From Erwinia amylovora (GTDB taxonomy: Bacteria; Pseudomonadota; Gammaproteobacteria; Enterobacterales; Enterobacteriaceae), in contig NZ_CP066796.1 in the NCBI RefSeq assembly GCF_017161565.1, forward strand, positions 744,001 through 808,000: a DNA stretch of 64,000 bases. Reading direction: 5' to 3'. Positions 2,324 to 21,175 of the stretch are shown in pieces. The notes under the pieces were generated by a model. That model was not told where the DNA came from and ran no database searches. It was given only the letters and a program-made list of their open reading frames with translations. The translations under genes and the position numbers were made by a program. Every line of letters begins with the position of its first letter. Positions within the stretch are counted from its first letter, which is position 1.

Positions 2324-3039
2324 TGCTATATCCTTATTGCTTATATTGAAGTTCCCTCTTGAAAGAGGAGTTTTTTTCGCTAACCCACAGCTTGATAAAA
2401 TAACGCAAAAAGCGCCATGCCACTTAGCTAATACCTGAAATGCAGGGGCGATGAGGTTAATTTACGCTGCGTGAACGAAAACGAATCTATCAAATGATTT
2501 ATTAAGAGTAAAGGAAGTGTTGGGCTGTTAATTAATAACAAGGTTATGTTTTATTAATTAATTTCACTATTAATTTTTTATTCGTTATTAACGCGAAAAT
2601 CTTAATGTCAACGATATCAACTGCGGAAATATTGTCATTGCTTGAAGTGAAATTTTCTTCGCGGTGTATAAGCTAATTCTCTTACTGACGGCCAGAATTC
2701 CCTGAACTCTTTCTGCTACCCCGGATGATACCTCTGAGCGGTGGCAGAAGCGCGATGTGAGTGCCAGCCGGGAGGATCCTGTTTTGGATATTGATAAAGC
2801 GGCTAATGAACTCTGCAAACAGGGCAGGCTAAGCCAGCAGTTTGGCGATGGTTTAGCAGAGGACAGGTGCACTGGCAGCAGCAAAAGATTGATATCAGCA
2901 CGTTGAGGAAGTTACTCGCTTGAATTTGATGGCTTAAGGCGTTGCTGCAAAGCTTCCCGATGACTGTGCATAAGACCGATCCCGGCGCCAGCCTTGACTT
3001 GCCCTTATGCATTGCTTGACTGGCATCCAGACTGGCTTG
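2324..3039. other. Gene-poor stretch between ompX-like gene and CDI remnants
   Basis: The first 260 bases are AT-rich and would hold the promoter of the ompX-like gene. From about 2700 to 2900 the plus strand has a short open run (SERWQKRDVSASREDPVL and onward to about LISAR) that looks protein-like in composition but has no start codon and matches no family I recognise. No RNA gene, insertion sequence end or repeat was seen. It is probably decayed coding DNA. Confidence 0.4.
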
Positions 3040-3200
3040 TTTCTGTTCTGCTGGTATTGAGCGTCATTACGCTTTCCTCATCCACCCACATTAATACCCA
3101 CGCCAGCGGAAGCGCTGCGGCATTCATTTGCCCGTCGGGTGCCCGGGTGATCTGCGCCGGCAGCAGGTTGACATCACAGCTCTGCTGCCGGCTGCGAATA
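3040..3200 (-). pseudogene. Diverged remnant of a cdiA FHA-2 repeat region
   Basis: Read on the minus strand this gives CDVNLLPAQITRAPDGQMN followed by a stretch ending SVMTLNTS. It lines up with the intact cdiA segment RDVNLLSAQNTSVLEGKNE...GLTLNAS (about 12740-12870). Similarity is clear in DNA and protein but far lower than between the recent copies, and there is no usable start or continuing frame. It is therefore an old, decayed copy of the cdiA region that lies just upstream of the common breakpoint seen in the younger orphan modules. Confidence 0.6.
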
Positions 3201-3224
3201 TAATCAAGTGAGGAGCGGCTACAC

Positions 3225-3506
3225 CCCTAACCAAAATAAGGCATATGCCGTGGGCTACGTCCGCGATCGGGCACCTTTGCGCCATCGCCCGCCGTGGCGC
3301 TGAAGGGCGGCGGGGTTTGATACCGGCACGGCGGTTAACGTGCGGGTGCTGCCGGACTGCCTGATACTGACGGTTAAACCGCCATCGCGGAGCCGGAGGT
3401 GATGCAGGCGCTGCGCCAGGTGTGCGGTAAGCCGTCCGCCCGCAAGCAGCGGCAGATTACTGAGTTTATCCGGATGATGGCGGGGCCGCAGAAGCGACGG
3501 GCGTAA
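3225..3506 (+). pseudogene. symE: Decayed symE-like toxin gene
   Basis: Fragments of a SymE protein can be read in different frames: KAYAVGYVRDR (N-terminal core strand), VALKG followed by GFDTGTAVNVRVLPDCLILTVK (the AbrB-like core), then PEVMQALRQVCGKPSARKQ and QITEFIRMMAGPQKRRA up to the TAA at 3504-3506. The last part matches the C-terminal tail of E. coli SymE, which the three younger copies lack. At least two frameshifts and a small deletion make it non-functional. Its end abuts a truncated cdiA core at about 3510, so a deletion joined the two. Confidence 0.75.
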
Positions 3507-3509
3507 CTG

Positions 3510-3854
3510 ATATCTGGCCTTGTTTTCAATATCGCCGAAGCCGAGCGAGCCGGTATCGAGGCGGTTTTTGTCCGGGGCGGCGGTGGAGCCGATAACCGCG
3601 CCGTTGAGCTGGGTATGTTCACCGGTGGTGATATCAAAGCCGCCCTTGCCGGCAAAGATGCCCGTCTGCTCCTGGACCGAGTCGTAGTTGCTGTGCATTT
3701 TATCCCGGCTCAGGCTGACAGAAGCGGTGGAAGGACTAAAGCCAACGCTGCCGCCCGCGCTGGCGTTCAGCTGTTTTGAGTCGTAGTTATCGCTGTCCTG
3801 CTCGCTGGTTAAGGTCAGGTAGCGTCCGGCATCCACGGTGACGCGGTTGCCGCT
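3510..3854 (-). pseudogene. Truncated orphan cdiA core (no VENN, no toxin)
   Basis: Reads from the shared breakpoint ([19 protein letters not shown]) through [35 protein letters not shown] and [11 protein letters not shown], nearly identical to cdiA residues 2072-2187. It then stops abruptly and runs antisense into the decayed symE gene. The pre-toxin domain, VENN motif, toxin and immunity gene are all missing. The junction at about 3507-3516 lies where both parent sequences can read tatctggcc, so the event may have used short homology. It is the fourth copy of the repeated core. Confidence 0.8.
3512..3854 (-). repeat. cdiA-core repeat, copy 4 (truncated, 0.34 kb)
   Basis: Partial copy of the 1.3-kb cdiA-core repeat; its right end is the common breakpoint and its left end is a deletion junction. 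It matches main cdiA at about 12270-12613. Confidence 0.85.
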
Positions 3855-3924
3855 TTCCGCTCCCTTGCTTAATTAGCATCATAAGACAGGGACACGTATA
3901 CCCATAACATCAAGACGTTATACC

Positions 3925-4080
3925 GTGGGTTATATCCGCGATCATATTAAGCACCTGCCGTCACCGTCCATTACCCTGAAGGGCCACTGGATGGCGGAGC
4001 TGGGATTTGATACCGGGCAGAAGATCGAGGTGATCACCGAGCCGGGACAGCTGATTATCCGACTGGCGGGGGAAGGGTAA
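3925..4080 (+). CDS. symE: SymE-like toxin, probably 5'-truncated (copy A)
   Basis: The frame is open from 3877 (HHKTGTRIPITSRRYTVGY...) to the TAA at 4078-4080, with TAG at 3874-3876 just before it. It reads YTVGYIRDHIKHLPSPSI, TLKGHWMAELGFDTGQKIEV and ITEPGQLIIRLAGEG, matching the AbrB-fold core of SymE, the SOS-linked type I toxin of E. coli. There is no ATG before the core, so GTG at 3925 is the only ordinary start and would give 51 residues. The N-terminal tail and the C-terminal tail of typical SymE are absent. It is divergent from the cdiA core behind it and convergent with the following immunity gene. It may be a fragment carried along with the cdiA module rather than a working toxin. 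Confidence 0.55.
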   Translation: MGYIRDHIKHLPSPSITLKGHWMAELGFDTGQKIEVITEPGQLIIRLAGEG

Positions 4081-4100
4081 CTTACTGACTATAAAGTAAA

Positions 4101-4122
4101 ATCCCGGCTCGGTGGCCGGGAT
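4101..4122. terminator. Bidirectional hairpin between symE copy A and immunity gene
   Basis: ATCCCGGC and GCCGGGAT form a perfect 8-bp stem with a six-base loop. It sits between the stop of symE (plus) and the stop of the immunity gene (minus) and is flanked by the conserved tract ataaagtaaa. The same hairpin recurs at 10198-10219. Confidence 0.7.
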
Positions 4123-4127
4123 ACTGA

Positions 4128-4448
4128 TCATTCAATAGCAGTTGCTACATATTGCTCAATAATATGAACATCTTCAACATTACATTCTGGGTAGATCCAT
4201 TTTTCCCAGTTGTTAATAACCCATTCTGTGCTCAATCCATTTCCTTCGTCTGAAATACTTTCCATTGGAAATTTTACTAAACATAGGCCAGCCTTGTAAC
4301 CGGATGAAATAATTAAACCATATGGACGTTCATCGTCCTGCGTTTCAAATACCATAAAATCAACCAACTTTTCATAAGGCCAGACTGCAGGTAATCGAAA
4401 AGCAGATCCTCTGGATATAAACTTTTCTCTACGATCAATAAGCTTCAT
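4128..4448 (-). CDS. cdiI: CDI immunity protein, partner of the E3-like toxin (Imm45-like)
   Basis: 106 residues, acidic, no signal peptide or membrane helix, so it should act in the cytoplasm. The start codon overlaps the stop of the toxin gene upstream by one base, the arrangement expected of a toxin/immunity pair. Conserved-looking stretches are GSAFRLPAVWPYEKLVDFMV, YGLIISSGYKAGL and WVINNWEKWIYPEC. They agree with what I remember of the CdiI partner of the Enterobacter cloacae E3-like CdiA toxin (Imm45 family), though no search was possible. Its role would be to bind and block the adjacent 16S rRNA-cleaving domain. Base composition is clearly more AT-rich than the cdiA core. Confidence 0.75.
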   Translation of the reverse strand: MKLIDRREKFISRGSAFRLPAVWPYEKLVDFMVFETQDDERPYGLIISSGYKAGLCLVKFPMESISDEGNGLSTEWVINNWEKWIYPECNVEDVHIIEQYVATAIE

Positions 4449-6493
4449 TATTTCACCTTCAAATTATGGCCGCCCGACGTATCCGCAGGCTTTCTTACTT
4501 GCATAGAGAAATCAACTTCACCTAAATGTTTGCCCTTTGGACTGACGACTTCAAATCGCCCATGCTGCGTATCCAGCGCATAAAGATTTCCATCTTGCCC
4601 CCGATACACATCTCGCCCACCATTTTTTTTAGTTAGTTGGTTATCCTTGACCATACCGTGTTCTGCTGCAACTTTCGGGGCTGTTTGCTTTATGATAGCT
4701 ACTCGCTCACCGGGAGGAAGACCAGCTAAACTTTTCTCGAAAGCACCGACAGCCTGCCCTGTCGCAATTTTTACGCTTGGATTAACTGCTGGAAGCTTAC
4801 CAGCCTTCCCAAGCCCACCCGTAACAGCAGCCATTGCTGCACCAGCCAGTATCTCCGCTTTCTGGCTATCTAAGCCATAAATCGTCTGTAACTGCTGAGC
4901 AAAGTCAGTACTGGTTACTATTCCTGACTCATCCATCTGCTGCATCAGCAAGACCGATAAATCATTCTTCATACTCCACGGAATATCTTCACCCAGCGCT
5001 CTGTCTATTGCTTCGTGAACCAATAGGCTGTTGGCGGGGATATCACCGTATTTCTCTTTACAAGCTGCGGCATCGGAAGCACAAGTTACGATAAGATCAT
5101 TACGCTGTGCCAGACTCAGATCTTCCATTTCCTTCACGATCTGTTTGCAGTCACCACGGGCATCGCAGCCTTTCGCTTTCGCCGCAAAATCATCTATCTG
5201 CTTGCTGCTCAGATAGTTATTCTCCACCGCATTCTTCCCGGCCTGGGCACCCGTCACTGTATCGGCGGCGCTCCCTCCCGTCAAGCCGCCCGCGAGGCCT
5301 GCCGCCAGCGTGCCCAGCGTGCTGACCGTCTGCTTTTGCTCTTCGGTGAGCTGGTTCCTGTCTGTCCCGGGGTACAGCTGCTGCGCAATAAATTCCCCGG
5401 TCGTTGCGCCTGCTGCTCCGGCCAAAGCGGAGTGACCGCTTGCCTGTGCCACTACCGCACCCACGACCGCATGCGCCATCAGGTTGGCTTCGACGTTGAT
5501 GCCGCCGGGCACGGTCTTGTCTTCGGTCATCTTATGAATAACCTCCGCCAGATACGGTGCCGCTCCGCCCGCAATCGCCGCACCGATGTTGCCGCCCGCC
5601 AGGCCCTGTACCGCCGCCGTGGCGGCCTGGATGGCCTGCTGCACCTTGCCGCCGGTGCCGAACCCGCTTTCCGTTAAGGCCTGATGATAGAAATTCTGGT
5701 AAACCTGATTTTCTATATCCGCCTCACTGTACTGCTTCGACGGGTCCTGCTTTTTCAGTCCGGCCAGGGCTTTATCGCGGTCGTGCTGACTGGCCCCGGC
5801 AATTTTATCATTTGCCGCCCGCGTGGCTTTGATTTTGCCCTGCGTCGCCGCAATATCTGCCGCCTGCAAGGCTATTTCGCTTATCTTCTGCGCTTCCTGC
5901 AGCCGCTGCTGCTCCTTTTCTTTATTGAAAATAGGGGAGAGCGTCTGGTTGGCATGCTCCACGTCGCGGCTCAGGCCGGCAACATCCTGGCGCCGGGCGC
6001 TGGCGTCACGGATGATGATGCTGCCGTCAGATACCGCCGCTTTGGTGGTTGAGCTGTCGTGTCCGTTACCGTTGACGCCCACCATCAGGATGCCGGCCGC
6101 ATTCCCGAGGAACTGCAGGCCTGTATTGCCGCCGGTGCCGAAGCTCTCGCTCAGGTGTTCGACCTGGTATCTGGCCTTGTTTTCAATATCGCCGAAGCCG
6201 AGCGAGCCGGTATCGAGGCGGTTTTTGTCCGGGGCGGCGGTGGAGCCGATAACCGCGCCGTTGAGCTGGGTATGTTCACCGGAGGTGATATCAAAGCCGC
6301 CCTTGCCGGCAAAGATGCCCGTCTGCTCCTGGACCGAGTCGTAGTTGCTGTGCATTTTATCCCGGCTCAGGCTGACAGAAGCGGTGGAAGGACTAAAGCC
6401 AACGCTGCCGCCCGCGCTGGCGTTCAGCTGTTTTGAGTCGTAGTTATCGCTGTCCTGCTCGCTGGTTAAGGTCAGGTTGCGTCCGGCATCCAC
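4448..6493 (-). CDS. Orphan cdiA 3' module with colicin E3-type RNase toxin
   Basis: 681 residues from a GTG; the homologous sequence begins at the breakpoint at 6511. Residues 1-422 repeat the cdiA core (FHA-2 end, alanine-rich helical region, pre-toxin domain). VENN is at 423-426, followed by a variable C-terminus: an entry-type domain with cysteines (KGCDARGDCK, VTCASDAAAC), then the catalytic part NGGRDVYRGQDGNLYALD and onward to GKHLGEVDF. D641, H644 and E648 have the same spacing as Asp510, His513 and Glu517 of colicin E3, which cleaves 16S rRNA in the decoding centre. There is no signal peptide or TPS domain, so it cannot be secreted as it stands; it is a donor cassette for recombination into cdiA, or possibly expressed inside the cell. 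Confidence 0.85.
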   Translation of the reverse strand: MDAGRNLTLTSEQDSDNYDSKQLNASAGGSVGFSPSTASVSLSRDKMHSNYDSVQEQTGIFAGKGGFDITSGEHTQLNGAVIGSTAAPDKNRLDTGSLGFGDIENKARYQVEHLSESFGTGGNTGLQFLGNAAGILMVGVNGNGHDSSTTKAAVSDGSIIIRDASARRQDVAGLSRDVEHANQTLSPIFNKEKEQQRLQEAQKISEIALQAADIAATQGKIKATRAANDKIAGASQHDRDKALAGLKKQDPSKQYSEADIENQVYQNFYHQALTESGFGTGGKVQQAIQAATAAVQGLAGGNIGAAIAGGAAPYLAEVIHKMTEDKTVPGGINVEANLMAHAVVGAVVAQASGHSALAGAAGATTGEFIAQQLYPGTDRNQLTEEQKQTVSTLGTLAAGLAGGLTGGSAADTVTGAQAGKNAVENNYLSSKQIDDFAAKAKGCDARGDCKQIVKEMEDLSLAQRNDLIVTCASDAAACKEKYGDIPANSLLVHEAIDRALGEDIPWSMKNDLSVLLMQQMDESGIVTSTDFAQQLQTIYGLDSQKAEILAGAAMAAVTGGLGKAGKLPAVNPSVKIATGQAVGAFEKSLAGLPPGERVAIIKQTAPKVAAEHGMVKDNQLTKKNGGRDVYRGQDGNLYALDTQHGRFEVVSPKGKHLGEVDFSMQVRKPADTSGGHNLKVK

Positions 6494-6511
6494 GGTAACG
6501 CGGTTGCCGCT
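5216..6511 (-). repeat. cdiA-core repeat, copy 3 (1.3 kb)
   Basis: 1296 bases from the VENN codons (5216-5227) to the common breakpoint ending ...gttgccgct (6511). It is close to identical to main cdiA 11318-12613, and the flanks differ on both sides. Confidence 0.9.
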
Positions 6512-6581
6512 TTCCGCTCCCTTGCTTAATTAGCATCATAAGACAGGGACACGTATACCCATAACATCAAGACGTTATACC

Positions 6582-6737
6582 GTGGGTTATATCCGCGATC
6601 ATATTAAGCACCTGCCGTCACCGTCCATTACCCTGAAGGGCCACTGGATGGCGGAGCTGGGATTTGATACCGGGCAGAAGATCGAGGTGATCACCGAGCC
6701 GGGGCAGCTGATTATCCGGCTGGCGGGGGAAGGGTAA
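6582..6737 (+). CDS. symE: SymE-like toxin, probably 5'-truncated (copy B)
   Basis: Almost identical to the copies ending at 4080 and 10177, including the junction upstream (cccttgcttaattagcatca). The protein core VGYIRDHIKHLPSP, SITLKGHWMAELGF and EVITEPGQLIIRLAGEG is intact, and the first ordinary start is GTG at 6582. As in the other copies the frame opens without ATG after an in-frame TAG. The lack of disabling changes may mean recent duplication or selection; the sequence alone does not decide. Confidence 0.55.
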   Translation: MGYIRDHIKHLPSPSITLKGHWMAELGFDTGQKIEVITEPGQLIIRLAGEG

Positions 6738-6755
6738 CTTACTGACTATAAAGTA

Positions 6756-6782
6756 AAATCCCAACCGCCAGGGTTGGGATTT
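6756..6782. terminator. Bidirectional hairpin between symE copy B and immunity gene
   Basis: AAATCCCAACC pairs with GGTTGGGATTT around a short GC-containing loop. A and T runs on either side make it a good bidirectional terminator for the two convergent genes. The stem differs from the hairpins at 4101 and 10198, but the flanking tract ataaagtaaaatccc is kept. Confidence 0.7.
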
Positions 6783-6787
6783 AATTA

Positions 6788-7090
6788 TTAATTCAATGTG
6801 TTAAGTAACATATCGATTAGATTAGATGCTTCCTGTCTATAATCTGATTCCCAACGATTTTGCCAGTCCCGAGGGCATCCTTCGTTTTCCCATTCAGACA
6901 AAGCAACTGCGTTAATAATTTCCAGCTCGAACCATATTTGGTGGTAGTCATCTCTGCTTTGATCATTTCTAAACAACTCATCCACTTGAACCAGATCTTC
7001 GGCATAACTGACGAACTTTGCAAAACTGGTAATGTTATTTAACGTACTTAACGCATATTCGCAAATAATGTCTTTTTTACTTGTCGCCAT
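6788..7090 (-). CDS. Small acidic protein, probable CDI immunity protein of the RNase-like module
   Basis: 100 residues, rich in Asp, Glu and Trp (WENEGCPRDWQNRWESDYRQ), no signal peptide or membrane helix. It overlaps the restored end of the upstream toxin reading frame (7077) by 14 bases, so the two genes are translationally linked. I do not recognise the family; the role as immunity protein is inferred from position, size and charge. It is intact although the toxin frame beside it is broken, which is what is expected if the cell must still resist siblings carrying the working toxin. Confidence 0.65.
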   Translation of the reverse strand: MATSKKDIICEYALSTLNNITSFAKFVSYAEDLVQVDELFRNDQSRDDYHQIWFELEIINAVALSEWENEGCPRDWQNRWESDYRQEASNLIDMLLNTLN

Positions 7091-7771
7091 ATTTAACCGT
7101 CACTACTCTTCCGGATTCATTTGTAACCACAGATACCTTGTTTTCAGGATCAAAATGTACTGTCGTCCCCCTCGACTAGGCGTTGATTTACCCGTTTTAA
7201 TTACATTTTCAATCACGGATGGTGTTATCCCTCTATCCTGCATTCTATCCAAAGCGTGACCAGAATATTCTCTATTACTGATCGTGGCTGGTTGATTCCT
7301 TACAGGCTGGTAAGAGGGGTTTTTAGGTTGATTCATTTGATTGTATCGGCTACCCATAGGAAGGGTTGCAGATACCTCACTACTAGCCTGATTTATCAGC
7401 TTCGACGCCTCAGCCACATCGCCTTTCTTCAGCGCCGTTTCTGCCGCCCTGATGACCTTTCCTGCCGCATCACCTGCGCCAGGAACTATACCGATTGCAG
7501 CGGCAAGGTAATCCAGCGCCGACTGCGCTTCCGCAAAGCTTTTGATATCACCCACGACTGGCACGAAGTCAGCGCCCAGTGACACTGTGTCTTTCAGCGC
7601 TTCACGCCGCTCTTCGTACATCTTCACCGAGCAGGTCTGGGCGCTCATTCCGCCGCAGTTTGCCTTCTTATAGCGCTCGTTTTCGGCCTCAACGTACTCA
7701 CCCGCCTTCTGCTCCGGCGTCTTGCCTTCAGACTGCGCCTGCGTAATATCACTCAGCGCATTATTCTCCAC
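7077..7771 (-). pseudogene. Orphan CdiA C-terminus beginning at VENN, RNase-like toxin, frameshifted
   Basis: The reading frame begins exactly with the VENN codons (GTG GAG AAT AAT, 7771-7760); none of the cdiA core is present. Next come a cysteine-containing stretch (KKANCGGMSAQTCSVK), a pre-toxin TG-like helical domain (DFVPVVGDIKSFAEA, GIVPGAGDAAGKV) and the toxin end SGHALDRMQDRGITPSVIEN. The last resembles DUF4258/RelE-like (BECR-fold) RNases. At a run of five C on the plus strand (7167-7171) the frame slips and would end at 7103 with LKTRYLWLQMNPEE. One more base restores GTTVHFDPENKVSVVTNESG and RVVTVKYGDK up to a stop at 7077, the expected final strands of the fold. The toxin is therefore inactive as written. 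Confidence 0.7.
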
Positions 7772-8027
7772 TAGAGTTGGGGGGAGGAGTTTTGTCTTTC
7801 ATCCTAGATAAGATCCAAATACCTGCTCCTGTAGGGATGCCCGCCGCGATGCCTCTTTTAATTGAAAAAAGAACATCCTCCTGCCAGCCAAAAATGAAAG
7901 AGCCATTTTTCAAATAAACCAAAATTGCAGCACATAGGCATCCGGATAAAATAGCAATAGTCATAATAACGACAAAAGTTACTAGTAAAATTAGGAGGGA
8001 TTTCAAACCATAAGTACGAGGTTTCAT
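7761..8027 (-). CDS. Two-helix membrane protein, probable CDI immunity protein
   Basis: 88 residues with two hydrophobic segments: about residues 9-37 (LLILLVTFVVIMTIAILSGC and on) and about 58-74 (GIAAGIPTGAGIWILS). It overlaps the end of the glycine-rich toxin gene by ATGA, as expected for cdiI. Membrane immunity proteins normally guard against toxins that act in the inner membrane, which fits the hydrophobic, glycine-rich partner. Its last codons (Ser-Gly-Glu-stop) are read out of frame from the VENN codons of the next module, so its 3' end was probably set or altered when that module was joined here. Family not recognised. Confidence 0.65.
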   Translation of the reverse strand: MKPRTYGLKSLLILLVTFVVIMTIAILSGCLCAAILVYLKNGSFIFGWQEDVLFSIKRGIAAGIPTGAGIWILSRMKDKTPPPNSSGE

Positions 8028-9951
8028 TTCTTATCCCCCTCATCTTTTAGCTTATTCTCGACTTTACTACCTGTTGCTTCACTGGCTACAGAACCGCCAA
8101 TAGCTCCAGCAATACCCGCAGTTTTATCAGAGATGACCGGAAAATATTTATTCCCAATTTCCAAAGCTTTACCTCCGCCCGCACCAACCGCAGTACCAAC
8201 GGCTGCCCCTGCCACAGCAGGAACTGCATCTTTCCCCTGCAACGTCGCCCCACCGTAAGCTCCGATAACGCTGACTCCTTCTGTAAACCAGAACCCTTTA
8301 CCCTGCGTAACGGCCCCTGAACCCGCTGCTATCAGTGCATCGGTCATGCTTACCGGGCCATCGCCTGTAATCTGATTACTTACATTGGCCGCACCACTGA
8401 TAACCCCGCCTGCCAGGATACTTCCTGCCGTTGCGCCGGAGGGCAACAGTACGGGCGCAACCACAGCGGACATTCCCGCGCCCCAAGCCGTTATCAGCCC
8501 CGTGGCTGCATTCTGTCCGGCGGGTAAATCACCCTGCGCCAGCTTATTCAGCCCGGCCTGTTTCTGCTCCGGCGTCAGTCCGTTTGTCTCTGCATACTGG
8601 TCCCACGATGCCACAGCCTGACCATAACTCTGCAAGCCGGACGGCAGGCCCAGCGCATTATTCTCCACCGCATTCTTCCCGGCCTGGGCACCCGCCACTG
8701 TATCGGCGGCGCTCCCTCCCGTCAAGCCGCCCGCGAGGCTTGCCGCCAGCGTGCCCAGCGTGCTGACCGTCTGCTTTTGCTCTTCGGTGAGCTGGTTTCT
8801 GTCTGTCCCGGGGTACAGCTGCTGCGCAATAAATTCCCCGGTCGTTGCGCCTGCTGCTCCGGCCAAAGCGGAGTGACCGCTTGCCTGTGCCACTACCGCA
8901 CCCACGACCGCATGCGCCATCAGGTTGGCTTCGACGTTGATGCCGCCGGGCACGGTCTTGTCTTCGGTCATCTTATGAATAACCTCCGCCAGATACGGTG
9001 CCGCTCCGCCGGCAATCGCCGCACCGATGTTGCCGCCCGCCAGGCCCTGTACCGCCGCCGTGGCGGCCTGGATGGCCTGCTGCACCTTGCCGCCGGTGCC
9101 GAACCCGCTTTCCGTTAAGGCCTGATGATAGAAATTCTGGTAAACCTGATTTTCTATATCCGCCTCACTGTACTGCTTCGACGGGTCCTGCTTTTTCAGT
9201 TCGGCCAGGGCTTTATCGCGGTCGTGCTGACTGGCCCCGGCAATTTTATCATTTGCCGCCCGCGTGGCTTTGATTTTGCCCTGCGTCGCCGCAATATCTG
9301 CCGCCTGCAAGGCTATTTCGCTTATCTTCTGCGCTTCCTGCAGCCGCTGCTGCTCCTTTTCTTTATTGAAAATAGGGGAGAGCGTCTGATTGGCATGCTC
9401 CACGTCGCGGCTCAGGCCGGCAACATCCTGGCGCCGGGCGCTGGCGTCACGGATGATGATGCTGCCGTCAGATACCGCCGCTTTGGTGGTTGAGCTGTCG
9501 TGTCCGTTACCGTTGACGCCCACCATCAGGATGCCGGCCGCATTCCCGAGGAACTGCAGGCCTGTATTGCCGCCGGTGCCGAAGCTCTCGCTCAGGTGTT
9601 CGACCTGGTATCTGGCCTTGTTTTCAATATCGCCGAAGCCGAGCGAGCCGGTATCGAGGCGGTTTTGTCCGGGGCGGCGGTGGAGCCGATAACCGCGCCG
9701 TTGAGCTGGGTATGTTCACCGGTGGTGATATCAAAGCCGCCCTTGCCGGCAAAGATGCCCGTCTGCTCCTGGACCGGGTCGTAGTTGCTGTGCATTTTAT
9801 CCCGGCTCAGGCTGACAGAAGCGGTGGAAGGACTAAAGCCAACGCTGCCGCCCGCGCTGGCGTTCAGCTGTTTTGAGTCGTAGTTATCGCTGTCCTGCTC
9901 GCTGGTTAAGGTCAGGTTGCGTCCGGCATCCACGGTAACGCGGTTGCCGCT
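8024..9951 (-). pseudogene. Orphan cdiA 3' module with glycine-rich toxin domain, frameshifted core
   Basis: Starts at the shared breakpoint (9951) and copies cdiA residues 2072-2503, but the run of T at 9663-9666 has four bases where the other copies have five. This splits the frame into 9933-9592 and an ATG-led frame 9526-8024 of 500 residues. After VENN (8668-8657) the C-terminus is new: ALGLPSGLQSYGQAVASWDQ, then long Gly/Ala-rich stretches (GAYGGATLQGKDAVPAVAGA, AGAIGGSVASEATGSKVENK). No nuclease motif can be seen. With a two-helix membrane immunity protein behind it, a membrane-disrupting or pore-forming toxin is the best inference. It lacks a TPS domain and so cannot be exported by CdiB. 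Confidence 0.7.
8657..9951 (-). repeat. cdiA-core repeat, copy 2 (1.3 kb, one base shorter)
   Basis: 1295 bases between the VENN codons and the common breakpoint, with one T fewer at 9663-9666 and a few substitutions relative to main cdiA 11318-12613. Confidence 0.9.
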
Positions 9952-10021
9952 TTCCGCTCCCTTGCTTAATTAGCATCATAAGACAGGGACACGTATACCC
10001 ATAACATCAAGACGTTATACC

Positions 10022-10177
10022 GTGGGTTATATCCGCGATCATATTAAGCACCTGCCGTCACCGTCCATTACCCTTAAGGGCCACTGGATGGCGGAGCTGG
10101 GATTTGAGACCGGGCAGAAGATCGAGGTGATCACCGAACCGGGGCAGCTGATTATCCGGCTGGCGGGGGAAGGGTAA
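10022..10177 (+). CDS. symE: SymE-like toxin, probably 5'-truncated (copy C)
   Basis: Third close copy, with small differences (Glu for Asp in GFETGQKIEV). It has the same missing ATG, the same TAG-HHKTGTR lead-in and the same end LIIRLAGEG at the TAA 10175-10177. It stands between the complete cdi locus on its right and the first orphan module on its left, convergent with the immunity gene of the main locus. It shows that the core-plus-symE unit already joins directly to the working cdi operon. Confidence 0.55.
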   Translation: MGYIRDHIKHLPSPSITLKGHWMAELGFETGQKIEVITEPGQLIIRLAGEG

Positions 10178-10197
10178 CTGGCTGGTTATAAAGTAAA

Positions 10198-10219
10198 ATC
10201 CCGGCTCGGTGGCCGGGAT
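10198..10219. terminator. Bidirectional hairpin after the main cdi operon
   Basis: The same 22-base hairpin as at 4101-4122 (ATCCCGGC/GCCGGGAT), placed between symE copy C and the end of the main immunity gene. It would end the cdiB-cdiA-cdiI transcript. Confidence 0.7.
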
Positions 10220-10226
10220 AATTGAT

Positions 10227-10568
10227 TTAAGGTCCATGCCATGACAATTTTACTTTCAACGTATCTGGCACAAGTTCAAAAAGCTCCCTGATATATTTCA
10301 GATGTTGATTGTAATTTGGTGATATATCATCATTACATTTATCATAATAATATTTCGCCTGATGGTTTAAAAACCATATATCATGCTCAGTAAAATCAGG
10401 GTTAAGTAATGTATGTGTCAGATTATGCACTAACTCTGCTTCAAAATAACACGACATATCCCTTCCTTTTTCTTTTTTATCAAGAAACTGGATGTTTCTT
10501 ATATAAGGCAAGGAAAGAGCCAGCATTTTCACATATATCTCATTTTTTTTCATGTAAATAACCATCAT
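10227..10568 (-). CDS. cdiI: CDI immunity protein of the main locus
   Basis: 113 residues from ATG at 10568, overlapping the cdiA stop by ATGA; a second start at residue 6 (MKKNEIYVKML) is equally plausible. Soluble, with aromatic and charged patches (YYDKCNDDISPNYNQHLKYI). AT-rich compared with cdiA. The place directly after cdiA and the translational overlap mark it as the cognate immunity protein that protects siblings from the ParB-like toxin domain. I do not recognise the family from sequence alone. Confidence 0.75.
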   Translation of the reverse strand: MMVIYMKKNEIYVKMLALSLPYIRNIQFLDKKEKGRDMSCYFEAELVHNLTHTLLNPDFTEHDIWFLNHQAKYYYDKCNDDISPNYNQHLKYIRELFELVPDTLKVKLSWHGP

Positions 10569-13500
10569 TTCCTTGTCGGCATAGGCTTAGCACCAGCAGG
10601 AGCGTTTTTTGCCTGAGTCCAGGAACCATTTTGCAGTAGTTTTTCTATATAAGAAGCATCTCCTGTATTCTTGTATATTTCCTGAGCAGCAACCATACGA
10701 TGATTTCCCTCTGATATATAGTAATTACCTTTACTGTCTATATAACCCGCAATACGGCCTTCAGGTGCCGTGAATCGGTAATTACTTGATAACATGTCAT
10801 TTTTAATCTGATCCACTTGCTGAGGGTTTCTCAGACCAATCTGCATACTTTTTATGCTGGTTGATACACCACTTTGGGAAATATTAGATACTGTTGCCTT
10901 AGCAAGATTAATTATGCTCTTACTAAGTCCAGCCACAGAACCAATGGCAACTTGATTTTCAGGATCGGATATAAACACCGCAAACTTAGTCCAGCCTGGG
11001 CTGTTGACGTCTATCTTCGCCAGATCCTGTCCATTCCACTGCTGCACGTAGGCTTTGGCTTCATCGCTGGTCATCACATCTGCGCCGATATGGTTCAGCC
11101 AGCCCGGACGTTCTGTTGCATCAATACCGCCCTGCGCCAGCTCCTTATGCATTCCCTGTGCTGTTAGTGGATTGTCCTTTAGCTTTTCGTCGGTTTCCGC
11201 ACTCTGCTTATCGCTGACCTGCTTCCATTTATCAACGACTGCCTGGCAGTCACCGCCAGATTTCCGGCATTGCGACAACTCTTTATCAAACGCCAGCGCC
11301 TGATCTGCGTGCAGCCAGTTATTCTCCACCGCATTCTTCCCGGCCTGGGCACCCGCCACTGTATCGGCGGCGCTCCCTCCCGTCAAGCCGCCCGCGAGGC
11401 CTGCCGCCAGCGTGCCCAGCGTGCTGACCGTCTGCTTTTGCTCTTCGGTGAGCTGGTTTCTGTCTGTCCCGGGGTACAGCTGCTGCGCAATAAATTCCCC
11501 GGCCGTTGCGCCTGCTGCTCCGGCCAAAGCGGAGTGACCGCTTGCCTGTGCCACTACCGCACCCACGACCGCATGCGCCATCAGGTTGGCTTCGACGTTG
11601 ATGCCGCCGGGCACGGTCTTGTCTTCGGTCATCTTATGAATAACCTCCGCCAGATACGGTGCCGCTCCGCCGGCAATCGCCGCACCGATGTTGCCGCCCG
11701 CCAGGCCCTGTACCGCCGCCGTGGCGGCCTGGATGGCCTGCTGCACCTTGCCGCCGGTGCCGAACCCGCTTTCCGTTAAGGCCTGATGATAGAAATTCTG
11801 GTAAACCTGATTTTCTATATCCGCCTCACTGTACTGCTTCGACGGGTCCTGCTTTTTCAGCCCGGCCAGGGCTTTATCGCGGTCGTGCTGACTGGCCCCG
11901 GCAATTTTATCATTTGCCGCCCGCGTGGCTTTGATTTTGCCCTGCGTCGCCGCAATATCTGCCGCCTGCAAGGCTATTTCGCTTATCTTCTGCGCTTCCT
12001 GCAGCCGCTGCTGCTCCTTTTCTTTATTGAAAATAGGGGAGAGCGTCTGGTTGGCATGCTCCACGTCGCGGCTCAGGCCGGCAACATCCTGGCGCCGGGC
12101 GCTGGCGTCACGGATGATGATGCTGCCGTCAGATACCGCCGCTTTGGTGGTTGAGCTGTCGTGTCCGTTACCGTTGACGCCCACCATCAGGATGCCGGCC
12201 GCATTCCCGAGGAACTGCAGGCCTGTATTGCCGCCGGTGCCGAAGCTCTCGCTCAGGTGTTCGACCTGGTATCTGGCCTTGTTTTCAATATCGCCGAAGC
12301 CGAGCGAGCCGGTATCGAGGCGGTTTTTGTCCGGGGCGGCGGTGGAGCCGATAACCGCGCCGTTGAGCTGGGTATGTTCACCGGAGGTGATATCAAAGCC
12401 GCCCTTGCCGGCAAAGATGCCCGTCTGCTCCTGGACCGAGTCGTAGTTGCTGTGCATTTTATCCCGGCTCAGGCTGACAGAAGCGGTGGAAGGACTAAAG
12501 CCAACGCTGCCGCCCGCGCTGGCGTTCAGCTGTTTTGAGTCGTGGTTATCGCTGTCCTGCTCGCTGGTTAAGGTCAGGTAGCGTCCGGCATCCACGGTAA
12601 CGCGGTTGCCGCTGGCCTGTGCGCCGGTCAGGGTGATGTCACGCCCGCTGGAGATGTTCAGACGGTCACCGGCGCTCACAGTGGTTTCAGTATGACTGAC
12701 GCCGTTGCCGCTCTCCGAGCCAGTACCGATATTGGCGCTGGCGTTGAGCGTCAGGCCATTTTTATCCCCGCCGAAATTAATGCCAACGCCAACGGAAGCG
12801 CCGTGGCTTTCGTTTTTACCCTCAAGAACCGAGGTGTTCTGCGCCGACAGCAGGTTGACGTCACGGGCGGCAGTCAGGCCGAGATCCTTGCCGGCCTGCA
12901 GCTGGCTGCCCTGAACGGTGATATCCGCGTCGGTGGCGCGAATATTGAGGTTGTTTCCGGCGGTGAGCGTGCTGCCCTGGCTCTGGTTCGAGGTTTGCGT
13001 CTGCTGAGATTTTGACGACTGGCTGCCGTAAGACAGGTTAACGCCAAACAGGTTTTTCGCCTCTTCTCCCTGAGCCGACCCAAGCTGATAGCCCTGATAC
13101 GCCTGCACGCCGCCCAGCGCCGTTTTGAGGCCGTCAAGCGCTGCCAGCCGCCCGCTGCTGGCGTTACTGGCCTCATTAGCGCTGGTCACCGCGCTGTTAA
13201 CCGCACTGCCCACCGCACCTGACAGCGCCAGCGTCAGTCCGCTCTGTTTTTGCTCTATGGTATGGGTTTGCACGCTCTGGTTGTCGGCCGCCAGAATATT
13301 GACCTGTTTGCCGCTCAGGTCCAGATCCTTGCCGCCCAACACCTCCGAGCCTTTTACCGTCAGCGCACTGCCTGCAGCAAGCTGGACATTGCCCTGACTG
13401 CTGCCGACGGTGCTACCCGCGCTGCTTTGCGATTGCCCGTTATCGGTGGTTTTAAGCGCATTTTTACCGTAACTGAAACCGATGCCGCCGGTGCCGGTCA

Positions 13501-16500
13501 GGCCGGTTTTTTTCTCCTCGCGCCGGTGATTTTCCTCGCGCGACTGGTCGGCGGCGGTGATATTGAGGTCATTGCCCGCCAGCAGGCTAACGTCCTGAGT
13601 GGACGCCACGCTGCTGCCGCTCACCAGCAGATCGTGTCCTGCCTGCATCATCACGCTGTTGCCGCTGACGCTACTGCCCAGCGCGCTCTGGTTTTGAACT
13701 TCATCATGCGTTTCTACCGATTTGCCGGACAATAATCCTTTAACGGTTTGCTTACTGTGTTCGGTCAGATGATAAGCAGAATCACCGGCGGTCAGGTTGA
13801 TATCATGACCGGCCTGCACCGCCACGTTGTCTTTTGCCGTCATGGCGGCGGCCTGAGCATTGACATCGTGGCCCGCGCCCAGAGCCACGCTACCGCCGCC
13901 GTTAAGCTGCGTGCCGATATCCTCGGTTTGCGTCAGATGACGGTAGTTATCGCTGCCCCAGTCACTTTTTTCGCTGTGGGTAGTGGCCAACGTATTCAGG
14001 TTGAGGTCATGGCCGGCAATGATTTCTGTCTGACTGTTCTTGCCGCTGTTGTCCACTTGCGATGCGGTCAGATTGATGTTGTTCACAGCCCGCAGGCCCA
14101 GCGTGCCATTGTCATTTTGCACATAGATGCCCGCCGCCCGGTTAAGATAGCGATTGCTGTCGTCGCCCGCCAGCGTGCTGCTGCTGTTGATGTCGCGACC
14201 TGCTATCGCCACCAGCGCATCACCGCCCTGCAGGGTGCCGCCGATGTTGTTGATATCGGTCATGGCTTTGAGATTGACGCGGTTAGCGCCAATATAGCCG
14301 CTGTTGTTGAGGGTGTCAGCACCGATCTGCGTCACTTCACGGCCGGCTATTTTTCCCCCGTTGGTCAGGTCGCGGCCGGTGTTGAGCACCACGTTGGTGC
14401 CGGACAGCAAGGCCCCGCTACCGTCGAGGTCGCCTTTTTTCACTCGCGCATAAACCTGTGGCACCAGCACGCTTTGCCGCGAACCGTCCGGCAGGGTAAC
14501 GTCCTGTTTGACCAGCCACACCATATCGCTGGTCAGCAGCGCCATCTGCTCTGGCGTCAGGGCCACGCCCGGCGTCAGGTGGTAATCCTTAGCGAAAGTC
14601 ACGCCCGCGTCCATCAGCGCTTTGTACTGCTCGCCGTCATTGCTGTAGCCCGCCAGGTAACGTTGCCCGGTCAGATTGACAATTTGATCGCGGATCAATC
14701 GCTGTTCGTAGTAACCATCGCCCAGACGCTTGTCCAGACGGCTCGGATCCTGGCCAAGCGCACTCTGCATGTAGTCACTGCTTAGCCACTGCTTTTGACT
14801 GGTGAAGCGGGGGTCGGTTTCGATCAGATAGTGGCTGGTCACCTCGCCATGCAGCTGGAACAGGCTGTTGTCGGGCAGGCGAGTATTTGGGGTGGTAACG
14901 CGGATAACGCTGTTCGCCGCCGCTCCCGGCAGGGCGATTTCCACGATATGCCCGACCGGTGCCACAACCCCGGCGGTGTTGCCAGCCTGTTGCTCCAGCG
15001 CCGAAGTATCGCGCCCGGCAACCGTGGTGCCGCTGCCGTTAACCTGGGTATTACCCTGATAAACCATCGTGGCCAGAGCAAAGGTCTGCTTTATCGCAGC
15101 TGGCTTGTAGCCGTTGGTGTCCTTGCCCTGGGACGTCTTCGTTTTTCCATGGTGGCGGCTTTTTTTAGCATACCAGCGGGTTTGCGAACCTTTATCAACC
15201 GTGACTTTGGTGCCTTCGCTGGCGACGTTATTCAGTACCGCGCCAGGATTCACCCCCAGCGTGCCGCCTGCCATAATGCGGCTGTCGTAGTTATTAATCC
15301 GCTCGCTGTTGACCGTCAAATTGCCTCCGGCAATGATCTGGCCCGGATCGCTCTCTTTGATCTGTGTTTCGGTAACGGTGCGCTGGTATTGGTACTCGTA
15401 AAACTCATTGTTGACGCTGCCATCAGGCATGATGGCATCGTGTACGTTGTACTTATTCGAGTGCGAGGTATCCACTTTAGCCCAGTCGTGGCGGGTTGTT
15501 GCGCCCTGTAATACCGCTTCATGATGCTGCGAGCGTTCGGTAACCACATTCTGGGTGACCAGGTGGTCGTTAAAATTATTGATCTGCCCGATGTTGAGCG
15601 TCATATTCCCAACAGATTCCAGCGTGGCGCTGTGGTTGTTGAATACTAACGCCTGGCCAGACGCTTGCCATTTGTCGTCGAGCTGACCGCCAATCGCCAC
15701 GTCCCCGGCACTGTAGATCAGCGCGTGAGCGCTGTTATTGATGTTTTGCGCAGCGATATCCAGACGTTCCCGGGCGGCGATGGTCGCCGCCGTGCCTCCT
15801 TCGGCCAGATTATTCAGCGTGCCGATTTGCAGAGCGATATGGTCACCATAAATGCGCCCGCTGCCCGTGTTGGTTAGCGTACCCGACTGAATATGGGTCA
15901 GGCTGCCATCGATCAGGCCACGATTGGTCAGTTCGCCATCGTTCAATATATGGTTTTGTCCGGCGCTGATTTCACCCGCCGCGGTGTTGTTCAGGCTGGC
16001 TGAATGAAGGTTCAGCGTTCCGCCGGCTTTTAGCAACGCCCGGTTGTCAAGGTTACCGCCAACATTGAAGTTCAGATCGCCGTTTGCAATCACATCGCCC
16101 TGGTTAACGAACCCCTGTTGCAGATTGAGCGTCATCGCGCCCTGCGATAACACGCGCCCGTCGCCGCCCAGAGAAGCGGCGCGTAGCTGCAGATGCTTAC
16201 CGGAGATCAGCGTGCCCCCGCTATTACTTAGCACCAGCGTATCACCGCCGCTGATCGAAAGACCATCAGCAGATGAGACTAAGCCATGCGTATTATTGAG
16301 CGACTGCACGGTGGTAATATCCAGCAGATCGTTAGCGCGCAGCACACCTTGCGTATTGTCGAGTGAATCACTGTTCAGCTGAACACGCTGGCCTTCCAGC
16401 CCGGTATTGTGCGTGTTGCTGTCACGGTTGACTATTTGCGCAGCGTTAACGGTAGTGGTGGCGCCGCTGCGGATCAGGCCGGCAGTGTTATTGACCAACC

Positions 16501-18826: not shown

Positions 18827-18843
18827 GGTGGAGTTTCCTTACT

Positions 18844-20598
18844 CTAATATTGCCAGTTGAGATTAAAGCCCAGTGATACGGGATCGGTTCTGAAACCGTC
18901 CGGCTTTGAGAAAGGCACCGAAGCAAACAGGTCATAGCCCACCTGTAATGCTTTGCCACGTAGCCCCATGGCACCACCGGCTAAATGGTTGCCAGCCAGA
19001 TATTGCGTACCGTTTCCGCCCACCTCACCGTAATCCACCCCGAGATAGAGTTCCTGAGTCGGCAGCGGCGTTGCCCATGCGATGTCGTTACGCACCAGCC
19101 ATCCACGGTCGGCATTCAACGTCCTTTCACCATCAAAGCCGCGTACCGTCCAGCGGTTACCTATGGCGAACTGCTCTTGTGGGGTGAGTAAGGTATGACT
19201 GAGCTGGCGTTGATACTGCACGTTATAGTGAAATCGTTGCCGCAGCAGGGTAAACGGAATATCAACCTGGGCGGAAAGTTGCACGATTTTACTTAACGCT
19301 GTGGCATCACCCATATTTTCCTCGGGTGCCTGCATCGCGCCAAACCAGCGGGTGCCGCGCTGATAGCTGGCAGCCACATCCAGCGTGGCCTGCGATATAT
19401 AGTGGCGATGCTGCAAACCCATTCGCCACGCCGAAGTGCGGCGGCGCTGAATGCCAATCTCGGTATCATCTATGTAGTTTCTGGATCCGCGCGCCAGCAG
19501 GTCATAAGTCAGCGTGGTTTTCTGATTGCCGTTACGGTGCAATATGCGACTGACCTGAAAATCCATATTCTGGCTTTTGCCGCTGTAGTGATAGTCGCTG
19601 TTGAGTCCGGCCACCGTTTGCCGGTAGTCATAGCTGTTGGCTGTCAGGCTAAGCAGCCAGTAGCCAAACGGCACCGAGTAGTGGCCGGTCAGGTTGTTGG
19701 AACCTTTGCCGTTTTTGCTTTGCAGGCTGCTGCTGCCAGAAAGATAAAACATATCGCTAAGCGATAACGGATTGTCCAGCGATAGCGTCAGGCCGCCCTG
19801 ATAGCGGCCGGTGCTGCGCGTGCCGGAGTCATCGAGTGAGGCAGCAACGCGCCACATGCGCTGCTGACGCCAGCGCAGCGCAATGTCGCTTTCGCCTGGC
19901 CCGGCAGCGGGCAGGATCTCCATATCGGCCTGCACGGTCGGCAGGCGCTGCAGGTTCTCCAGCCCCTGCTCAATATCACGCAGATCCAGCAGCTGGCCCT
20001 GATGGGCCGGAAATGCGCTATAAAGGCTGATGTAACGTCCACTGTCCGGCGTCAGCGTCACGTGTCGGGTTTTACCCGCGACCACCACCAGCCTGAGTTC
20101 ACCGCTTTTGAGATCCTGTGCGGGGGCCAGTACCCGGCTGGTAATATAGCCGTGGTCAACCAGGCGATTTTGCAGGGTGCTCATCAGCAGGTTGATCCCC
20201 TGTCCGCCAAGGCATTTCCCCACCGCCTGATGGCTGATGCGCTGCAAAGGTAGCCAGTGGGGCAGGGCGTCTGTACCGCTCAACGTCACGCGTGTAAGCG
20301 TGAAACACGGGGTTTCTTGCGCAAAACGAAGGTGACCCACGTTGCCCGACGGCGCTGACAGCCGAATATCAGGTGCTTGTGGCTTCAGGCGATTCTGTAA
20401 AGCCCGTTGTTGATCTTGCTGATGAATTAATTGTTGATCGCCTTGCCCGATTAATGCGTCAGGTAAAGGCTTAGCGGGCAACGTTGCGGCGACAGGCGCG
20501 GTTTCAGCCCGTGCTTCAGCAACGGAAAGCCAAAGGGATATCAGCAGTGTTTGCCGCACGATATTTATTATCCGGCGGCGTAGTTGAATATCCATCAT
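18844..20598 (-). CDS. cdiB: CdiB, TpsB/Omp85-family outer-membrane transporter for CdiA
   Basis: 584 residues. Signal peptide 1-31 (hydrophobic [20 protein letters not shown], cut near ARA-ET). A plug-helix/linker region is rich in Gln ([20 protein letters not shown]). Then come two POTRA domains ([32 protein letters not shown] and [10 protein letters not shown]) and a 16-strand barrel with [20 protein letters not shown], the family motif [12 protein letters not shown] (VRGY/F box on loop 6) and the final strand [11 protein letters not shown]. It recognises the TPS domain of CdiA and moves it across the outer membrane. The gene ends 17 bases before cdiA, the E. coli-type order cdiB-cdiA-cdiI. 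Confidence 0.92.
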
Positions 20599-20848
20599 TT
20601 ATTATTATCCTGTTTGGCGTGTCGGAAATGGCTTCCATTTCTTCATTGCAGAAAACAAATTTTACAAAATTAATATATGAATTTACATTAGAAAATCTAT
20701 TTAAGTAAAAAAATAATGCGAATTCTTAATTTCGGTACGAATTTTATACAGCGCGGCAGGCTTAATAAAAAGAGTTGGCGAATCAAAGGGAAGGTGACTG
20801 ACGGCTTAACGGAAAAAATATCACGGAAAAGCGACAGTTCTCATAGCT
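20599..20848. other. AT-rich upstream region of cdiB
   Basis: Strongly AT-rich non-coding DNA ahead of cdiB, which should hold the promoter of the cdi operon on the minus strand. No gene or clear operator was recognised. The region to its right belongs to the small-RNA promoter. Confidence 0.5.
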
Positions 20849-20914
20849 GGTTACATTTTGCGGATATCTGTTGCGATTCCGCGGTAGCGGTTTAATGCGG
20901 TGCATTGCTACAGT
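20849..20914 (+). promoter_or_regulatory. Promoter of the OmrA/B small RNA with OmpR-like site
   Basis: GGTTACATTTTGCGGATATC at 20849-20868 resembles OmpR boxes (TTTACATTTTGnnACAT-type). TACAGT at 20909-20914 is a good -10 element seven bases before the first C of the RNA. In E. coli both omrA and omrB are switched on by EnvZ-OmpR, so the same control is expected here. Confidence 0.6.
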
Positions 20915-20920
20915 TCAGAT

Positions 20921-20999
20921 CCCAGAGGTATTGATGGGTGAACATCAAAAGTATTGACGCTTTATTTCACCAACCTGCGCAGAAGCGCAGGTTTTTTTT
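20921..20999 (+). ncRNA. omrA: OmrA/OmrB-type Hfq-dependent small RNA
   Basis: It begins CCCAGAGGTATTGATGGGTG, which matches the shared 5' end of E. coli OmrA and OmrB (the seed that pairs with targets such as ompT, cirA, csgD and flhDC mRNAs). It ends with CACCAACCTGCGC, loop AGAA, GCGCAGGTT and eight T, the typical Omr terminator and Hfq tail. The middle is different from both E. coli RNAs, so it cannot be assigned to A or B. About 79 bases. E. coli has two tandem copies next to aas; only one is seen here, and it is 11.8 kb away from aas. Confidence 0.9.
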
Positions 21000-21175
21000 G
21001 CTCTTAATTTGTGTTTAATTATCATAATTAACTCTCTAACCCCGGTTAGTTAAATTCTTCCGCTCTAAAACGTCCGCTGGCCTCACACGATCTGAAACAC
21101 AGTTTGTCTTTTAACCCTTTGTCATTTTTTGTATAACTCTCTTCAAGTTATTCTGCACCCTGCCACGGAACACAC

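Follow-up and report, generated by a model that had tools for sequence, protein, structure and literature searches.

Introduction

Downstream of cdiBAI, the locus of contact-dependent growth inhibition (CDI), Poole et al. 2011 (PMC3150448) described rows of cdiA fragments, truncated and carrying VENN, together with unrelated toxin ends and with immunity genes. In their account most orphan cdiA-CT (toxin-region) copies have no translation start, recombination and tandem duplication are proposed, and a crossover via the VENN sequences is proposed to load another toxin end. Genes of the symE family have been noted in passing inside cdi loci of Proteus mirabilis (PMC11278526) and Dickeya (PMC8386352) and near genes of the type VI secretion system (T6SS) (PMC7764402, PMC3942780), and both genes are named in a figure legend of a Xenorhabdus paper (PMC11566119). 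Here, a CDI locus followed by an orphan cdiA-CT/cdiI array is analyzed in a 64,000-nucleotide stretch of Erwinia amylovora (NZ_CP066796.1, positions 744,001 to 808,000; the whole stretch is called the window). Such modules are of a known kind, as a first-pass annotation of the sequence had rightly stated; in this array the cdiA core is joined to an antisense symE frame, and the two are repeated together.

Like the arrays of Poole et al., the window array lies downstream of an intact cdiBAI and consists of cdiA-homologous fragments up to VENN, followed by unrelated toxin regions. Unlike the EC869/254 case of that paper, where a cassette runs from one VENN to the next, the window cassette runs from VENN to a terminator, and unlike those arrays, in the description of which symE is not mentioned, the unit of the window also holds the terminator and an antisense symE fragment. 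In Proteus mirabilis BL95 (PMC11278526), a symE gene likewise lies antisense between cdiI and an orphan module and is followed by a terminator at a distance of 6 nt; however, the relevant section of that paper deals with one 297-bp symE, calls it not part of the CDI system and describes no repeated junction. The hec loci of Dickeya zeae likewise have SymE genes between pieces of hecA (cdiA), but that source lists them there as inserted genes, with no analysis of an array or junction (PMC8386352). With the SymE/SymR type I toxin-antitoxin pair of Escherichia coli, as outlined by Kawano et al. 2007 (PMC1891008), the window frames share a protein family and the AbrB fold, whereas they are devoid of a start codon and 5' region, and neither they nor their intact relatives show a clear LexA box. 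In the open-access literature, surveyed by titles and the starts of abstracts and with subscription papers largely outside it, no work was found in which symE is treated as a recurring element of cdi arrays.

Results

The repeated block of the window

The array is built on a block of constant order, namely terminator hairpin, symE, junction, cdiA core and VENN, in which symE lies on the strand opposite to the core. Self-comparison gave 99.0% identity over 1,546 bp between units 2 and 3, which excludes chance and upholds the earlier claim that a single unit made up of core, junction and symE was multiplied; the orphan cores of the same two units are 99.2-99.5% identical to cdiA over ~1,295 bp. 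Core homology reaches 3854, 6511 and 9951, and inside cdiA the match to the orphans stops at 12613 while cdiA continues, so that the common end base read by the first-pass annotation is confirmed by the homology limits. The foreign sequence that it saw after the junction is indeed shared, the first 120 bases past the junction being identical in all three units.

The homology of the block stops close to VENN at one end and, at the other, within the terminator hairpin or just beyond it. Past VENN, where the 99% identity ends, the Pfam content differs, and the cassettes between the blocks are unrelated: a Cytotoxic-domain CT with Imm45, a two-module stretch whose second member carries DUF4258, and the main locus's own pair. 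A related hairpin and a new immunity gene had been noted in the three orphans; hairpins and immunity-type frames are present, but the stem, the same in units 1 and 3, is different in unit 2. The symE copies are near-identical despite differing neighbor immunity genes, and therefore symE goes with the block and not with the cassette. Assembly collapse of a repeat, earlier put forward as a possible refutation, is unlikely because the copies differ by substitutions and hold different cassettes, all within one 3.8-Mb contig.

symE frames and their intact relatives

All three window frames score 64.4-64.7 bits against Pfam SymE_toxin (an AbrB-fold family), well above its cut-off of 29 bits, in agreement with the opposite-strand symE-like gene first reported, yet none of them has a start codon and each has an in-frame TAG just upstream. 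The first start still available in frame is an internal GTG, which would leave 51 residues; the 20 bases ahead of this GTG contain no Shine-Dalgarno-like run, and the 5' hairpin of intact relatives is gone from all three. On sequence grounds, the window symE frames are unable to make SymE as known. Most likely they are carried-along remnants whose sole remaining role is to form part of the repeated homology; of the two roles suggested at first sight, addiction element or passenger, it is the passenger that fits better. At Rfam gathering score, positions 2500-21000 gave only OmrA-B, outside the array, and no antisense RNA match inside it; the OmrA-B small RNA lies at 20921-20999 (RF00079, 73 bits). 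Two more SymE-family frames occur in the same genome (G000:C1:2616339-2616479 and 2872145-2872285; 98 and 105 amino acids open).

In intact relatives, such as those of Mixta, Pantoea and Rosenbergiella, the place missing in the window is taken up by an ATG start codon, a ribosome site and, upstream, a hairpin. The predicted 5' structure, in which 8/13 pairs show changes on both sides among 20 sequences, includes a second stem over the ribosome site. A covarying hairpin from ~-75 to +3 of intact symE was seen at loci L057, L074, L077 and others and is possibly a control RNA structure; Rfam at gathering score has no name for the symE 5' hairpin in the six loci searched, and its interpretation as an antisense terminator was not supported, no U-run being seen after the hairpin on that strand in the upstream sequences scanned. 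An isrA RNA match (Rfam) lies opposite a symE-like frame at L038:13470-13598. The E. coli genomes gave no DNA match to the Mixta symE. Paired CTG/CAG LexA half-sites were absent upstream of 24 of 25 intact relatives, the remaining one being a poor match (9 of 20), and from both strands of four window stretches. As no clear LexA box is present in these window stretches or in the 25 upstream regions, the "SOS-type" label earlier attached to this toxin is not supported here.

Junctions in other genomes

A junction survey covered 119 symE hits from 66 sources, some of which overlap or belong to the same genome (L068/L073, L039/L143, L040/L092, L090/L129); L058, L060, L070 and L075 were excluded beforehand as duplicates. 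The 5' region is intact in 48/119 hits and truncated in 71/119, and 23 of the truncated ones have an antisense core within 60 nt. Fourteen other genomes hold an antisense cdiA core within ~100 nt of a truncated symE, each at its own position. The window junction lies at CdiA residue 2072 and that of E. piriflorinigrans at ~2121, one junction being common to its two contigs; others lie at 1950 in genome G017 (two copies), 1904 in Rahnella rivi, 1969 in G112, 1926 in E. psidii, 1807 in G269, 1914 in G263, 2248 in Pantoea varia, 2356 in Yersinia aleksiciae, near 2081 in Pluralibacter gergoviae, near 2213 in Rosenbergiella epipactidis and R. metrosideri and 1953 in G248 (two copies), G250 having two copies as well, and these numbers, being ends of protein matches, may be several residues off. 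Between copies the junction is constant in the window, E. piriflorinigrans, G017, G034 and G248. Hence the constancy initially ascribed to the junction mostly holds within a genome but not between genomes.

A symE-core block, in each case with its own junction, is likewise repeated in G034 (3,864 bp at 96.9%), G248 (2,032 bp at 94.0%), E. piriflorinigrans (two contigs), G017 (two copies) and two Rosenbergiella species. A direct repeat of 5.3 kb is present in G263 (L126, 7171-12469 and 14700-20000, 97.9% identity). Locus L125 of G276 has four symE copies to which other sequence is joined upstream at the same point, behind the end of a longer symE, and three of the four share an early in-frame stop. 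Tight clustering of the breakpoints at the symE start was considered and dropped: it cannot be claimed from the first set of genomes, since that set was found through symE, and more genomes give cuts next to a core from ~-50 to +107. Arrays with the core some 250-330 nt upstream of an intact symE start also exist.

Ten Pantoea loci and one Mixta locus were compared pairwise, and a shared symE block was found in 50/55 pairs. In 48 of these 50 the block extends to the symE end or no more than ~75 nt further, and in the other two it continues through the same cassette. This block edge would fit an exchange at that place and is no proof of it.

Orphan cores with and without symE

A second sample was chosen by the core: 20 stretches from 14 genomes, hand-picked mostly for several core hits, out of a pool of 89 genomes searched, 34 of which had a core match. 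In the raw script output, symE accompanied 11 orphan cores and was missing from 14, and another 10 cores lay at stretch ends. The last 10 were set aside, three of the 14 were removed as full-length genes (L149 14047, L157 1483, L163 11600), and six long core copies had already been excluded by the script, of which one (L146 4763) has a symE hit. An antisense symE-like hit thus lies within 600 nt of the core 5' end in 11/22 orphan cores; nine of the 11 hits are confirmed in the Pfam list, and two (L148, L154) are weak and absent from it. With 54 SymE matches in ~65 Mb of the same 14 genomes, chance nearness is, by arithmetic, well below 1/1000 per core. By eye, full-length cdiA has a symE-like hit within 3 kb after it in 6/10 cases and none in 4/10. 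The pairing of orphan cores with symE is supported as a real pattern beyond the Erwinia window genome, and in these families symE stands often, though not always, opposite and just after cdiI. The "fixed pairing" of the earlier reading is weakened by the 11 cores without symE, while the array as such is not.

Features of the array

The features are collected in Table 1. The genes cdiB and cdiA and the presumed cdiI occupy 20598-10227 (minus strand), with the array directly downstream. The orphan cores first listed are confirmed, except that the leftmost (3507-3854) is a remnant with neither toxin nor immunity gene attached and that 6788-8650 is a single interval holding two toxin/immunity modules. 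The degraded longer symE meets this leftmost remnant with its 3' end at a common CTG. In the core of unit 3, a T run near 9664 is one base shorter than in cdiA and unit 2, and the reading frame is broken. Small immunity-type frames follow the CTs; Imm45 is the only Pfam name among the frames tested, and neutralization by them is putative. E. piriflorinigrans locus L063 apparently has a VENN-site join like that of the second CT of unit 3. Among plasmid records, 43 match the query and none covers 80% of it.

Table 1 Features of the cdi locus and orphan array, in window positions.
Feature	Position	Strand	Evidence or remark
cdiB, outer-membrane transporter	18844..20598	-	Pfam ShlB 1e-107, POTRA_2
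Full-length cdiA, 2753 amino acids	10565..18826	-	Pfam TPS, Fil_haemagg_2, PT-VENN, CdiA_helical
cdiA VENN	11318-11329	-	cdiA stretch homologous to orphans ~11317-12613
Presumed cdiI, main locus	10227..10568	-	Place after cdiA; no Pfam match
Hairpin/terminator, unit 3, between cdiI and symE	10198..10219		Terminator-like on both strands
symE frame without start, unit 3	9974..10177	+	Pfam SymE_toxin 64.4 bits; TAG just before
Core/symE junction, unit 3	9951..9952		
Orphan cdiA core, unit 3	8658..9951	-	99.2% to cdiA; frameshift
CT (toxin-region) part, unit 3 first module	8024..8650	-	Open frame 8024-9526
Presumed immunity gene, unit 3 first module, small frame	7761..8027	-	Position alone; no Pfam match
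Second CT of unit 3, without own core, joined at VENN site	7103..7771	-	Frame starts M-ENN; DUF4258
Presumed immunity gene, unit 3 second module	6788..7090	-	Position; no Pfam match
Hairpin, unit 2	6758..6780 (about)		Different stem
symE frame without start, unit 2	6534..6737	+	
Core/symE junction, unit 2	6511..6512		
Orphan cdiA core, unit 2	5217..6511	-	99.5% to cdiA
Unit 2 open frame (core, VENN and CT)	4448..6493	-	Pfam PT-VENN, Cytotoxic (PF09000), Fil_haemagg_2
Immunity gene Imm45	4128..4448	-	Pfam Imm45 1.2e-31
Hairpin, unit 1	4101..4122		
symE frame without start, unit 1	3877..4080	+	
Core/symE junction, unit 1	3854..3855		
Core remnant without cassette	3507..3854	-	98.9% to cdiA
Degraded longer symE	~3204..3506	+	Translation; nhmmer 34 bits over 3204-3344; Pfam 22.3 bits, below cut-off

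Discussion

The array probably arose by a tandem duplication with one end inside symE or next to it, and its later growth was probably due to homologous recombination between the blocks. The founding duplication would have reached from inside the cdiA core to symE itself or its immediate neighborhood, giving rise to the junction and to an orphan copy; this end is proposed because symE is often found on the opposite strand immediately after cdiI. Thereafter, whole cassettes could be added, removed or exchanged by homologous recombination between blocks, with the junction kept constant and symE carried along. Should an orphan core cross over with cdiA, the full-length gene would receive another toxin end, comparable to what Poole et al. 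proposed for VENN.

Several observations weigh against this course of events. The two copies in G250 agree on the symE side but have core ends separated by some 400 nt, and in G027 a 3,392-bp repeat contains the core and ends short of symE; both cases make the proposal somewhat weaker. One R. epipactidis copy differs on the symE side, having a fuller symE, with its core end unchanged. In Pantoea dispersa (L062), 4/6 array copies of symE retain the start and 5' hairpin, and symE is therefore not a remnant everywhere. Half of the core-chosen orphan cores (11/22) are without symE, which is thus not required for an array. Between the window and E. piriflorinigrans, synonymous divergence is 4-6 of ~40 sites in symE and 54/169 in the core (Fisher p 0.005-0.03), and the lower symE value may reflect exchange or an unrecognized constraint. 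Finally, a break of homology over the cassette, as in the Pantoea and Mixta pairs, is expected under any mechanism.

Other explanations concern what symE does at the junction. As an addiction element, it would be one half of a SymE/SymR toxin-antitoxin pair by which the cassettes are kept in the chromosome. The Pfam scores of the window frames, and the intact symE with conserved 5' region that stands beside cdi loci of relatives, four times in one P. dispersa array, speak for such a role; the idea fails in the window because the frames have no start codon, ribosome site or 5' region, with the TAG in frame and the upstream hairpin gone. Rfam at gathering score shows no match in the array either, and symE is part of the constant block and not of the cassettes supposedly protected, all of which leaves the addiction proposal highly improbable. 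A better chance, although still a doubtful one, is given to symE as a working partner of polymorphic toxin loci, protecting or signaling during self-intoxication, with the window copies as recent casualties: symE is reported beside T6SS/Rhs-type loci in passages of PMC7764402 and PMC3942780 and within cdi/hec loci in those of PMC11278526 and PMC8386352, and the 48/119 hits with an intact 5' region agree with it, but 71/119 are 5'-truncated (some loci overlapping and counted twice) and half of the orphan cores do without symE.

Unlikely, too, but less so than addiction, is the capture of a promoter, whereby the SymR promoter inside symE would have been retained and would now read outward, past the junction and into both the orphan core and the immunity gene. 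In E. coli the SymR promoter is embedded in the symE frame, as sketched in PMC1891008. The homology to symE starts at about codons 3-8 in the window, E. piriflorinigrans and Rosenbergiella. From the published motif, we take the SymR -10 to lie close to these codons. A promoter-like site at 10067-10038 does read out of symE, but it matches 9/12 bases, and the scanned stretch holds 5 sites against a mean of 1.6 in shuffles. Junctions deeper in symE (+30 to +107; L046, L087, L127, L134, L141, L091, L095) would delete the promoter. With several cuts beyond the supposed promoter, its capture was not sustained as a general cause of the junction's place and is kept as a rival for the window genome only.

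Beyond duplication and recombination between blocks, a broader reading is offered tentatively, and we consider it rather less likely to be right than wrong. In this reading, symE and the terminator may form a standing right-hand frame of CDI cassettes in many Enterobacterales, with exchange taking place between VENN and terminator-symE; symE might then be the second homology arm of a natural exchange system, and array junctions would be cut in or near it.

Conclusion

Overall, the array differs from the known orphan arrays in a repeat unit that includes the terminator and symE, and its layout recurs in further bacteria with junctions of their own. The "SymE toxin" annotations inside toxin arrays are thereby explained; many of these frames are truncated and are not to be counted as toxins. 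For the replacement of CDI toxin ends while old immunity persists, a repeated block on both sides of the cassette provides a concrete exchange substrate, predicting crossovers in the core or in terminator-symE. If the homology-arm reading is true, what is annotated beside cdi loci as the gene of an unrelated toxin would be the second homology arm of cassette exchange.

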